In this document: piece by piece, positions 56,268-60,171 of the stretch
Numbering within the stretch: the first letter of the stretch is position 1
Layout of the letters: the number at the start of each line of letters is the position of its first letter
DNA from: Levilactobacillus brevis
GTDB taxonomy: Bacteria; Bacillota; Bacilli; Lactobacillales; Lactobacillaceae
DNA length: 64,000 nucleotides
NCBI GenBank assembly: GCA_021383565.1
Contig: CP079699.1
Coordinates: 1,922,001-1,986,000, forward strand
Direction of reading: 5' to 3'
Notes under the pieces: generated by a model
Databases searched by the model: none
What the model was told of the DNA's origin: nothing
Seen by the model: the letters and a program-made list of their open reading frames with translations, nothing else
Program-made: the position numbers and the translations under genes

Positions 56268-57788
56268 TTAGTTTTGACCTTGTTTTAGCGCCGCAATCTG
56301 TTCACGTAGCTCACGTAAGCGCTGGGTATCCAGCTCCGGAGCCAGCATTAACTGATCGTATTCAAACTGTAGCCGCGGAAGGTCCGTTGCCGGTACGCCT
56401 TGGGCCGCTTGCTTTGGATCGCGTAAACGGCGGTCGGTGAGGGTCAAGACCCGGGTGGCAACCTTTTGCCGGAACGTCTGGTCATGGGCAACGAACAACA
56501 CGGTCCCAGGATAACCTATCAGAAAGTCTTCCAGAGCTTGGAGAGCTGGCAAGTCCAAGTAGTTCGTGGGTTCATCCAGCACCAATAGATTACTGGCACT
56601 CACCAGAATGGCGAGTAGTTGTACCTTCACCCGTTCGCCACCGCTGAGCTCCCCGATGAGTCGGTCGTAGAACTTGGCTTTGAGACCAAACGCTCCCATT
56701 AATTGCCGCGTTCGGTTGTCATCTAGGGCCGTCACGTGCCGCATCACCTGCCAAACTGTCTGCGTTATCGGCAACGTCGTCATGTCTTGATGGAAGTAAC
56801 CGACCCGGGCACTGGGGGCTAGTCGAATCCCCGCGCGTTGGGCGAGAATCGCTTCAATCAAGGTGGACTTGCCACTGCCGTTGGGTCCGGCCAAGGCCAC
56901 TCGCTCCCCTGGCTTAACGTGAAGTTGAACGTGTTCCAACAGATCGTGGCGGCCGCGTTGCAGGTGTAAATCCGTCACACTAATCACGTACTTTCCGGTC
57001 ACTGGGGGAAGATCCGTCGCGACTAATTTGAGTGGTGCCACCTCATGCGGCTTGGTCGCGACCTTCTCACGGTTCATCCGATCTTTGAGGGCCCGCGCGC
57101 CCCGCTCCATCTTGGCGGCGTTCTGCTCACGCATGCTCTTAGAGTTTGCGCGTTCAGCCTCGCTCATGTGCCGACTCCCCTTGCGAATCCGATCGGCCTT
57201 TTCATGGCGGGCCTGAATGGCCGATTGTAGTTGCCGTCGCTCCTTTTGTTCCTGCCGGTAGCGGTCTTGGTCGTTGTGCCGTTCTTGGTCACGCAGGGTG
57301 ATGTAGTCCGCAAAATTTCCGTTATACGGTATATAAACGTGGTCGGCCAGCGCCCAAATCTGGGTGGTCACGGCCGTCAGGAGTTCCCGGTCATGTGAGA
57401 TGACAATCAGTAACCCCTTAAAGCGCCGGAGCTGACCAATTAGCCAGCGTTGGTGTTGGTCATCCAGGTTGGCCGAGGGTTCATCGAGAATTAAGATTTC
57501 CGGCCGTTGCGCCAAGGCGGTGCGCACCCGATCCAACATGCTCTGGCCCCCGGAGCGACCTTTCGTCGGCGCAATCTGGGGAACCAGTATCACGGGCGCC
57601 GTAACCGTCCGCTGACCGGTAAAGTCCGTGTCCGTCCCGGCAATAATGTGGGCTAACGTGGTCTTCCCCGTTCCATTGGCGCCAATGATGCCAACCCGTT
57701 CCCCTGAATGGGCGGTCAGCTGGTCCAAAGTAAATAGTGGTTCTCCCGCGACCGTTTTTGTGAGTTGTTTTAAGTTAAGTTGTGTCAA
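56268..57788 (-). CDS. ABC-F family ribosome-protection-type ATPase
   Basis: This 506-residue protein has two ATPase modules and no membrane segment: module 1 GANGTGKTTLAHI, RSGGQ and ILILDEPSANLDD; a linker rich in K, R, E and Q (about 180-260); module 2 GPNGSGKSTLIEA, LSGGERVKV and LLVLDEPTNYLD. ABC-F proteins act on the ribosome, often against antibiotics (Lsa/Vga-like). TTG start at 57788 follows GGGGG; the reading to 57872 runs into the leader terminator. Confidence 0.85.
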   Translation of the reverse strand: MTQLNLKQLTKTVAGEPLFTLDQLTAHSGERVGIIGANGTGKTTLAHIIAGTDTDFTGQRTVTAPVILVPQIAPTKGRSGGQSMLDRVRTALAQRPEILILDEPSANLDDQHQRWLIGQLRRFKGLLIVISHDRELLTAVTTQIWALADHVYIPYNGNFADYITLRDQERHNDQDRYRQEQKERRQLQSAIQARHEKADRIRKGSRHMSEAERANSKSMREQNAAKMERGARALKDRMNREKVATKPHEVAPLKLVATDLPPVTGKYVISVTDLHLQRGRHDLLEHVQLHVKPGERVALAGPNGSGKSTLIEAILAQRAGIRLAPSARVGYFHQDMTTLPITQTVWQVMRHVTALDDNRTRQLMGAFGLKAKFYDRLIGELSGGERVKVQLLAILVSASNLLVLDEPTNYLDLPALQALEDFLIGYPGTVLFVAHDQTFRQKVATRVLTLTDRRLRDPKQAAQGVPATDLPRLQFEYDQLMLAPELDTQRLRELREQIAALKQGQN

Positions 57789-57832
57789 AGAGTCGTCCCC
57801 CTTTTGAAAGCAGGGATCGATGGCTGGCAAAT

Positions 57833-57873
57833 AAAAAAGTGGCCGCATTTCCCATACGGAAATGGCGCCCACT
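57833..57873 (-). promoter_or_regulatory. Leader terminator/attenuator of the ABC-F gene
   Basis: On the minus strand GTGGGCGCCATTTCC pairs with GGGAAATGCGGCCAC, then U6, 45-85 bases before the start codon. A copy of the 5' arm (AGTGGGCC, 57928-57921) lies upstream and can pair with the 3' arm as an antiterminator. No leader peptide could be defined with confidence. Confidence 0.65.
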
Positions 57874-58153
57874 GCTTACCTTTGGCAAGTCAGTCGGCGT
57901 AACCATCAATCCCAATTGCAGGCCCACTCCACCCCTCAACGGTGGTGAAGCTGACAAACATTTGAGAGTGATTAGTTACGCATCGGCTGAATACCTCGTT
58001 CTTTCTTAAAGTACGACTAGAATAGCATACCGCCGAGGCTTTGACAAGCGACCCCCGCAATTTGTCTAAATTGGGAAGCTAAACTTAAGAGCATTCCCGC
58101 GCAAATCCGAGTACACTAAAGGTAAATTAACCATCGAAATTGGAGGGAAATCC

Positions 58154-58627
58154 ATGCAACCATTACGTATTTTATTTATCTCTATTGAAGGGAATACCCG
58201 CAACTTTGTGGAAAATCTGACGGCCTATGCGGCTAAGCAACACGCCCAGAATGCCGAAGCTCCCGAAATAACAGCCACCGAAATCAGCGAAGCCAGCGAT
58301 TTAACGGCCGAAACACAACCGTATTTCTGCTTCGTCCCCACTTACCTCGATGGCGGTAACGGGATTGACAACGGCGTCAAGGAACTGATGACTAACGTCT
58401 TGGGCGAGTACATCGATTACGGCGCTAACGCGCAACACTTGATTGGCGTCGTCGGTAGCGGTAACCGTAACTTTAATGAACAGTACTGCTTGACTGCCAA
58501 GCGCTACGCCGAGAAGTTCAACGCCCCCTTCATCGCCAACTATGAACTCCGCGGGGTGCCGCGCGATGAACAGCGGGTCTACGATGCCCTCGTGGCGCGT
58601 ATGAAGGAAGTGATCAGCCATGACTAA
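58154..58627 (+). CDS. nrdI: Class Ib ribonucleotide reductase flavodoxin NrdI
   Basis: This 157-residue flavodoxin-like protein has ILFISIEGNTRNFVENL (FMN phosphate loop), FCFVPTYLDGGNGIDNGVKE and LIGVVGSGNRNFNEQYCLTA, blocks specific to NrdI. It activates the manganese cofactor of NrdF by supplying an oxidant. No nrdE or nrdF lies near it. GGAGGG precedes the ATG. It overlaps the next gene by 8 bases. Confidence 0.92.
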   Translation: MQPLRILFISIEGNTRNFVENLTAYAAKQHAQNAEAPEITATEISEASDLTAETQPYFCFVPTYLDGGNGIDNGVKELMTNVLGEYIDYGANAQHLIGVVGSGNRNFNEQYCLTAKRYAEKFNAPFIANYELRGVPRDEQRVYDALVARMKEVISHD

Positions 58628-59372
58628 TCCGACGTTAAAGACATTGCTGAATCACCGCAGCATTCGTCACTTTACCGACGAAAAATTAACGGCGGCCGAA
58701 ATTACCACCTTGGTGGATGCCGCACAACACACACCGACCAGCACCTTTTCTCAGCAGTACAGTATCATCAGCGTGACCGATCCGCAAAAATTGGCGGTCT
58801 TGAGCAAGATTACCGGGCACTCCTGGCTGGAAAAGTCCAGCCACTTCTTCTTATTTCTGGCCGATCAGTACCGTAACGCCCAATTGATTACGGCCACGCC
58901 AACCGCTGTGGCCAACCTTCACAGTACCGACAAGTTACTCGCCGGAATCTTTGATGCTAGTATCGCCGTCGAGGCCATGGTCGTGGCCGGCGAGAGTCTC
59001 GGCTTGGGGAGCACCATCATGGGGAGTGTCCTCAATGATGTTCCCCAACTGATTGACCTCTTCCATTTGCCCGAACTCACCTTCCCCGTCTTCGGCCTCG
59101 CCATCGGTCATCCGGCAGAGGAACCTGAGCAAAAACCGCGGATGCCGCAATCACTGATCCACTTCACCAACGACTATCAACCACTTACCGTGGACGACCC
59201 GACACTAGCCGCTTACAACCAAGTGATTAACGACTATTACCAGGCCCGCGACAGTCACCAGCGGCCGGAGACCTTCTCTCACCACATTGCGACCGAACTG
59301 GCGCGGGACCCGCAACAACGGGCCAAGTTAAATCAGGCGCTGGAGTACCAAGGCTTTTTACAAAAACGCTAA
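58620..59372 (+). CDS. Nitroreductase/flavin reductase (NfrA-like)
   Basis: This 250-residue oxidoreductase of the nitroreductase fold has LLNHRSIRHFTDEKLTA (FMN phosphate arginines), DAAQHTPTSTFSQQYSIISV, DASIAVEAMVVAGESLGLGSTIMGSV and FGLAIGHPAEEPEQKPRMP. That is the NADPH-FMN reductase pattern of NfrA/Frp. The ATG overlaps the end of nrdI by 8 bases, so the two are translationally coupled; it could supply electrons to NrdI, which is an inference. Confidence 0.86.
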   Translation: MTNPTLKTLLNHRSIRHFTDEKLTAAEITTLVDAAQHTPTSTFSQQYSIISVTDPQKLAVLSKITGHSWLEKSSHFFLFLADQYRNAQLITATPTAVANLHSTDKLLAGIFDASIAVEAMVVAGESLGLGSTIMGSVLNDVPQLIDLFHLPELTFPVFGLAIGHPAEEPEQKPRMPQSLIHFTNDYQPLTVDDPTLAAYNQVINDYYQARDSHQRPETFSHHIATELARDPQQRAKLNQALEYQGFLQKR

Positions 59373-59609: not shown

Positions 59610-59897
59610 ATGAAAAATCTTGAAAAAACCCGGGTTACTATTCGAATGGATATCGAGCGCAAGCGCAAGGCCGAACAGGTGGCCAATGGATTAGGCATCG
59701 ACCTAACATCGGCTGTCAATTTATTTATCTCTCAAATGATTAAGGAGAATGGCCTACCATTCAAGCCAACCAACAATCCCCTAGAAGCCAATTTGCAACA
59801 AGCCTTGGACGATGTCAAGAATGGCGATACTACTGACTATTCTCTCGACGACTTCATCAAACATGTCGAGGATTCGGGTGAGTCGACCGATGATTAA
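59610..59897 (+). CDS. RelB/DinJ-family antitoxin
   Basis: This 95-residue antitoxin has an N-terminal ribbon-helix-helix (TRVTIRMDIERKRKAEQVA, then LGIDLTSAVNLFISQMIKENGLPF), typical of RelB/DinJ, and an acidic C-terminus (DDFIKHVEDSG) that wraps the toxin. AGATTGGAGG lies before the ATG. Its stop overlaps the toxin start by 8 bases. Confidence 0.88.
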   Translation: MKNLEKTRVTIRMDIERKRKAEQVANGLGIDLTSAVNLFISQMIKENGLPFKPTNNPLEANLQQALDDVKNGDTTDYSLDDFIKHVEDSGESTDD

Positions 59898-60171
59898 AAC
59901 TGTCAGAACCACAAAAATATTTGAACGTAACCTGAAGAAACTCAAGAAAAAACACTACGATACTTCACGACTCACCCAAGCCGTTTCACTCATTACTCAC
60001 GGCGATCAAGAGGCCCTCATCCGCAAATACAAGTGGCACATGCTCAAGGGCGATAAAGCAGGTATCAACGAAATCCATCTAGATAGTAACTGGTTGCTAC
60101 TATACAAAATCATCGATGACGATGTCGTTACCCTTTTATTGTTAGCCACTGGTCCACACGACCTACTTTAA
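59890..60171 (+). CDS. YafQ/RelE-family mRNA interferase toxin
   Basis: This 93-residue basic toxin resembles YafQ: KIFERNLKKLKKKHYDTSRL, KYKWHMLKGDKAGINEIHLD, NWLLLYKIIDDDVVTLLLLATGPHDL. The pattern of histidines and aspartates (HMLKG, EIHLDSNW, GPHDL) follows YafQ, which cuts mRNA on the ribosome. ATG at 59890 overlaps the antitoxin. The complex would bind the upstream inverted repeat. Confidence 0.87.
   Translation: MIKTVRTTKIFERNLKKLKKKHYDTSRLTQAVSLITHGDQEALIRKYKWHMLKGDKAGINEIHLDSNWLLLYKIIDDDVVTLLLLATGPHDLL

Follow-up and report, generated by a model that had tools for sequence, protein, structure and literature searches.

A probable ribosome-mediated attenuator with a three-codon upstream reading frame ahead of a Vga-like ABC-F gene in Levilactobacillus brevis

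Background

How is transcription into an ABC-F gene controlled when the leader of that gene contains a terminator, and could a ribosome on a short upstream reading frame (uORF) throw the switch? We addressed this question in Levilactobacillus brevis (assembly GCA_021383565.1, contig CP079699.1, positions 1,922,001-1,986,000; the whole 64-kb stretch of DNA analysed is the window, and all coordinates below are positions within it). A preliminary description of the interval 57833-57928 had likened the leader to those of ribosome-induced ABC-F resistance genes, had noted an upstream copy of the terminator 5' arm as making an antiterminator possible (taken below as a pairing of that copy with the terminator 3' arm), and had failed to identify a leader peptide that starts properly.

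The ABC-F gene and its product

The gene (56268-57788, minus strand, from the open reading frame [ORF] list and the sequence) encodes 506 amino acids from a TTG start (57788-57786), and a domain search finds two ABC_tran stretches in the product, corresponding to two ABC-F nucleotide-binding domains. The protein passes the general ABC-F model NF000355 (387.3 bits against a cut-off of 380), but further ABC-F paralogues in this genome do so too, and the match alone is therefore insufficient for a resistance-protein label; against the named NCBIfam subfamilies it falls below both curated cut-offs (Vga, 378 versus 725; Msr, 324 versus 680). Its best solved relatives by phmmer are Vga(A)LC (267 bits; 7nhl, which we take to be the LC variant), Lmo0919/VgaL (263 bits) and VmlR (226 bits), with EttA behind at 170 bits. 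In a midpoint-rooted tree of 26 rows, built without Msr and VmlR, the protein falls in a clade of 21 rows (support 100/99) that includes Vga(A)LC, Vga(C) and Vga(G) and excludes four further ABC-F paralogues from this genome, and it lies on a separate Lactobacillaceae branch (11 rows, support 100/100). Judged by sequence, the gene is Vga-like on a separate Lactobacillaceae branch, and its product is a putative resistance protein. The start codon is TTG in every Levilactobacillus leader displayed, and mostly ATG at the same place in the Lactiplantibacillus homologues.

Architecture of the leader

A SigA-type promoter (TTGTCA, a 17-nt spacer and a TG-extended TATTCT; 58019-58047, minus strand) is predicted by consensus match, which would place the transcription start near 58012 and give a leader of about 224 nt. 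Consensus matches number 2 in the region against 3.2 expected by chance and are weak alone; a similar promoter lies upstream of the uORF in homologous leaders. Directly upstream of the promoter is a divergent gene pair, an NrdI-like flavodoxin and a nitroreductase (58154-59372, domain search), and at 59610-60171 there is a small gene pair (95 amino acids, then an overlapping reading frame), presumably a RelB/DinJ-type antitoxin and a YafQ-type toxin.

The fold of the leader is more stable than that of shuffled sequences (z = -4.7; none of 200 shuffles was as low). Prediction and consensus fold both place an intrinsic terminator at 57832-57873 on the minus strand (hairpin 57873-57838, U-tract 57838-57832), where the preliminary description had seen one, with 92.5% of alignment cells paired across 33 Levilactobacillus leaders. 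The upstream copy of its 5' arm is also there: AGTGGGCC lies at 57928-57921 and its first seven bases repeat AGTGGGCG, such that AGTGGGC occurs twice (57928-57922 and 57873-57867). Downstream of the terminator, a hairpin formed by UCCCUGCUU and AAGGGGGA (57796-57816, minus strand; minimum free energy and consensus folds), which resembles SL-4 of the Bacillus subtilis vmlR leader, hides the ribosome-binding site (RBS) of the ABC-F gene; all 8 listed pairs are present in 19 of the 33 rows, and 4-7 pairs in the other 14. A search of the window against Rfam release 15 gave no match at gathering score, and only two chance-level matches below that score in region 57700-58100; for want of a match we rejected a riboswitch or other known RNA as the identity of the leader.

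Contrary to the report that a leader peptide with a proper start was lacking, a three-codon uORF, AUG CGU AAC UAA (Met-Arg-Asn), is found on the minus strand (57983-57972), some 45 bases 5' of the interval first described. Its Shine-Dalgarno (SD) sequence, GAGG (57994-57997, minus strand), is 10 nt 5' of the AUG, a normal distance, and invariant in all 33 Levilactobacillus leaders, with a distance to the start of ten or eleven bases across leaders. The uORF is likewise present in every one of the 33 orthologues, encoding MRN in 32 and MRF in one, with CGU or CGC at codon 2 (sequence variants ATGCGTAACTAA, n = 25; ATGCGCAACTAA, n = 7; ATGCGCTTCTAA, n = 1), and the block AAGAACGAGGUAUU..GCCG/A AUG CGU/C AAC UAA lies upstream of the gene in 30 of 30 first regions and in 3 later ones. 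Four features typical of translation, namely an SD sequence, a start codon, the synonymous CGU/CGC at codon 2 and an unvarying stop at codon 4, lead us to infer that the uORF is translated. Two larger ORFs in the ORF list also overlap the leader, one of 60 amino acids on the minus strand, whose TTG start (57957) lies inside the leader stem, and one of 75 amino acids on the plus strand; conservation favours the three-codon ORF.

Distribution of the leader

The ABC-F orthologue occurs in 33 of 35 Levilactobacillus genomes and is preceded by the leader in all 33; it is absent from G006 (72% complete) and G021, in neither of which the leader motif was found. A 30-base leader motif, allowing at most 3 mismatches, matches once in each of 27 of the 35 genomes; among the eight others, six have an extra base within the motif and two have no gene. 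The exact pattern ACGAGGTATTNNGCCGATGCG matches once in each of 6 of 395 genomes of the order, all in this genus, and neither the exact pattern (395 order genomes) nor the 30-base motif (35 genus genomes) revealed a copy of the leader before any other gene. A scan of genome contigs returned 39 stretches, of which we inspected and rejected as leaders those from Planococcus and Polaribacter, which look like chance matches within coding sequence.

At 67 of 96 ABC-F homologue loci, a pattern scan found an MRN, MRI or MRF ORF, a count that favours the MRN and MRI forms because the pattern was derived from such leaders. Six of the 67 start with GUG (L052, L061, L087, L089, L092 and L096), the CGU/CGC AAC UAA being unchanged. 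Leaving out L047, which coincides in position with L038, and L094, in which no U-tract was detected, left 33 Levilactobacillus leaders and 32 from other genera; 14 of the latter, from Lactiplantibacillus, form a second alignment (A2). In seven more distant homologues, belonging to other families within the order, ORFs of two to three codons occur near the expected place (MKF, MRN, MKF, MKL, MKI, MYN and MR), read by eye without comparison to chance.

Two departures from the common arrangement were seen. In four Levilactobacillus species (L011, L014, L016 and L018) an extra ORF of 77-92 amino acids stands between the leader and the ABC-F gene, beginning directly after the RBS-hiding hairpin and overlapping the ABC-F start by 89 nt in a different frame, which rules out an N-terminal extension of the ABC-F protein in these species; the ABC-F gene retains its own GGGGGA-type site, and the leader would control the extra small ORF first. 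A natural leader lacking its 5' half occurs in L053 and on a 15-kb Limosilactobacillus reuteri plasmid (L142, 2300-2464), adjoining a RelB-type antitoxin gene. Promoter, uORF and anti-antiterminator 5' arm are missing from this half leader and the terminator and later parts are kept, and by our model the anti-antiterminator could not form.

Competing helices

We named helices and then counted their pairs on the 33-row Levilactobacillus alignment, with 500 column shuffles per helix; the shuffle counts given here rank the helices and are not probabilities, because relatedness is uncorrected. Without being told of any helix, RNAalifold returned from the 33 leaders a uORF-containing stem, a hairpin that we call P2, the terminator and the RBS hairpin, and from the 14 Lactiplantibacillus leaders a similar uORF stem, an inner stem and the terminator. 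The uORF stem is an anti-antiterminator (RNAalifold and covariation, minus strand), whose 5' arm (57995-57969) spans the uORF and falls inside the footprint of a stalled ribosome, and whose 3' arm (57908-57884) doubles as the antiterminator 5' arm and partly as the release strand; 96.2% of its cells are paired, 13 are double-changed, and 0/500 shuffles reach its covariation score. P2 (57951-57926, minus strand) tops this stem and holds the first bases of AGTGGGCC (92.0% paired, 6 double-changed, 0/500 by covariation score).

Covariation and folding place the antiterminator in a local hairpin of CGCCGACUGACUUGCC with GGUAAGCAGUGGGCG (57899-57884 with 57880-57866, minus strand), the 3' arm of which ties up the base of the terminator 5' arm; 91.9% of cells are paired and 9 are double-changed, all in one pair, with 0/500 shuffles reaching the covariation score. 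For the terminator the corresponding values are 1 double-changed cell and 18/500 shuffles. Covariation also identifies a release helix, in which the strand GGGAUUGAUGG (57913-57903, minus strand), complementary to the 5' arm of the RBS-hiding hairpin, pairs with CCAUCGAUCCC (57823-57813, minus strand), with 92.6% of cells paired, 9 double-changed in 4 of 11 pairs, and 0/500 shuffles reaching its covariation score. The anti-antiterminator, which overlaps the uORF, and the antiterminator are mutually exclusive in Levilactobacillus.

Folding with a stalled ribosome

We mimicked a stalled ribosome in ViennaRNA folds of transcripts ended after the U-tract by forbidding pairing from the 5' end to 15 nt beyond the uORF. 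Across the 33 leaders this masking took the terminator base from a mean probability of 0.84 down to 0.08 and the antiterminator from 0.20 up to 0.84 (or, as estimated separately, from 0.16 to 0.85), with antiterminator probability exceeding 0.5 in 3/33 leaders when free and 27/33 when masked. Folding of the full leader gave a release helix that went from 0 to 0.75 upon masking and an RBS hairpin that went from 0.38 to 0.15. A 31-nt footprint slid along 12 of the 33 leaders held terminator probability at 0.06-0.20 for P-site offsets of -8 to +22 and at 0.68-0.73 from +40 to +58; it fell again at +70 (0.27), a position from which the footprint would cover the other arm of the anti-antiterminator, and was high once more from +76.

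By an automatic measure (a drop in terminator probability of at least 0.5), 26/33 Levilactobacillus leaders respond to masking and 0/33 to control footprints; the seven that do not respond are L007, L008, L010, L011, L025, L014 and L016, of which L014 and L016 have a free terminator probability of just 0.54. Only 3/32 leaders from other genera show such a drop. Equilibrium folding thus supports the switch within Levilactobacillus and not elsewhere, and we do not accept masking as proof of the switch in all genera. In the other genera kinetics may play a part, or the U-tract may have been chosen wrongly; L071-L075 read 0 when free, which suggests that the automatic choice of U-tract may be wrong there.

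Proposed mechanism and alternatives

The elements of the leader, their conservation, their covariation and their thermodynamic competition are as observed above, and we consider it very probable, from sequence comparison and modelling, that the leader is a ribosome-mediated double attenuator of the ABC-F gene, a reading in which we infer the transcription start, uORF translation, stalling, an inducer and resistance activity. With no drug present, ribosomes would translate the uORF (Met-Arg-Asn) and depart, the uORF region would pair with 57908-57884 as anti-antiterminator, the antiterminator would be blocked, and the terminator would fold, ending transcription about 180 nt into the leader; in rare readthrough transcripts the RBS of the ABC-F gene would still be hidden by the hairpin. 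Under a drug acting against initiation or against formation of the first peptide bonds, a ribosome would stall on the uORF and cover the whole anti-antiterminator 5' arm. The freed strand would then form the antiterminator, which would take the base of the terminator, and the adjoining strand GGGAUUGAUGG would pair with the anti-Shine-Dalgarno strand, exposing the ABC-F start. The ABC-F protein would protect the ribosome, and the gene would go off again. In the footprint scan each of the three codons would serve as the stall site, in keeping with drugs acting at initiation or on the first bonds, and a lincosamide, pleuromutilin or streptogramin A is by this fit, and by analogy with vmlR and cplR, probably the likeliest inducer.

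Ribosome-mediated attenuation, as the preliminary description had it, is strongly supported by the comparison and the folding; its antiterminator is not, the local hairpin taking that place. We give next to no credence to AGTGGGCC paired with the terminator 3' arm GGCCACT as the antiterminator itself: the repeat exists and most Levilactobacillus rows could form the helix (91.2% of cells paired, 2 double-changed), but shuffles equal it in paired fraction (267/500) and in covariation score (207/500), so that there is no covariation above shuffles. The helix is absent from the folds (its probability averages 0.000 in the free state and 0.020 in the stalled one and exceeds 0.5 in 0/33 leaders), the strand reads differently in Lactiplantibacillus, and the partner that covariation supports for the repeat, whose first bases are held there, is the P2 stem and not the terminator 3' arm. 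A terminator-type switch that senses a small molecule or protein directly, with the tiny ORF untranslated or not the sensor, is very improbable. A binding site could also explain the strong structure and the near-invariant surroundings of the uORF, and the lack of an Rfam match leaves room for a novel ligand, but this reading sits poorly with the SD sequence, the AUG (GUG in some genera), the synonymous codon 2 and the fixed stop, with the different two- to three-codon ORFs (MKF, MKL, MKI, MYN and MR) at the homologous position of distant ABC-F genes, and with a gene class known for uORF control.

The mechanism could also be mainly translational, with a leaky terminator and RBS hiding, opened by the release helix, as the chief control; this we regard as possible, if rather unlikely. 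The release helix has the most double-changed pairs, the weak TTG start would add reliance on RBS exposure, and the Clostridioides difficile cplR study describes a need for ribosomal stalling and not for premature termination (PMC10201436); set against this, the terminator has a good U-tract, and the antiterminator and anti-antiterminator both covary.

Significance

In the literature searched (titles and abstract openings, with few subscription papers), no ABC-F attenuator leader is described for Lactobacillaceae, and the available parts of a uORF review, of a premature-terminator survey and of the uORF4u paper make no mention of the lactobacilli searched for. In food and probiotic bacteria such as Levilactobacillus and Lactiplantibacillus, drug resistance is assessed by growth tests. 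If the gene described here is an inducible chromosomal ABC-F gene, it would confer intrinsic, inducer-dependent resistance that such tests could miss, as could resistance-gene databases, since the protein scores below the named Vga and Msr cut-offs. The natural series of tripeptides (MRN, MRI and MRF, and distantly MKF, MKI, MYN and MR) raises the question of whether initiation-type drugs read the sequence of the uORF. We think it unlikely, though worth stating, that a Lactobacillaceae leader family with a nearly fixed Met-Arg-Asn/Ile sensor governs this chromosomal ABC-F gene in dozens of species and is tuned to a natural peptidyl-transferase inhibitor of fermentations or plant material and not to clinical drugs; tuning to a particular inhibitor would follow, in that reading, from a dependence of stalling on the second and third codons.

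Comparison with known leaders

In the msrD system (Nat Commun 2023, PMC10314930), an ABC-F gene is under ribosome-stalling control on a leader ORF, with cladinose macrolides as inducers. The L. brevis locus would share the ABC-F gene with leader-ORF stalling control, and differs in that cladinose macrolides are the inducers for msrD. The msrD leader peptide is reportedly longer than the L. brevis tripeptide.

The Listeria rli53-lmo0919 leader is a lincomycin-responsive terminator/antiterminator leader before a Vga-group ABC-F gene, according to a review (PMC11550727). To that extent the arrangement is the same as ours, but the L. brevis leader matches no Rfam family and the two ABC-F proteins are distantly related, at the phmmer score given above for Lmo0919. 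The Listeria leader is said to come originally from the Term-seq paper.

The C. difficile cplR leader (Obana et al. 2023, PMC10201436) has a three-codon uORF, MR[I/M], and is induced by lincomycin and retapamulin. A three-codon uORF hidden in a 5' hairpin and a terminator are common to both leaders; in cplR the RBS is hidden by the terminator hairpin itself, whereas in L. brevis a separate hairpin downstream of the terminator hides it.

In layout the leader corresponds to that of B. subtilis vmlR as described by Takada et al. (2022, PMC9226507). There SL-1 contains the uORF (MIN) and is the anti-antiterminator, followed by SL-2, the terminator SL-3, an SL-4 in which the RBS is hidden, and a release pairing; its inducers are lincosamides, pleuromutilins and streptogramin A, and vmlR-type uORFs in other Bacilli read MDN, MDK and MRK. 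The L. brevis leader has the same layout: a conserved uORF with its SD sequence near the leader 5' end, within the anti-antiterminator stem, P2 in the place of the pause hairpin, an intrinsic terminator before the gene, and an RBS-sequestering hairpin with an alternative pairing, which upstream bases would open upon induction. The lengths also agree (219 nt in vmlR against about 224 nt from the predicted start). A NusG-dependent RNA polymerase pause is, in that text, a feature of the vmlR type. Unlike vmlR, with its MIN, the Lactobacillaceae leaders read MRN or MRI, sequence and host family differ, no Rfam model links the two leaders, and the L. brevis gene starts with TTG. With a vmlR-like layout, a different tripeptide and no Rfam match, the leader is probably a further case of a control type already known, ribosome-mediated attenuation of a Vga-like ABC-F gene, distinguished by its tripeptide, its sequence and its host family.
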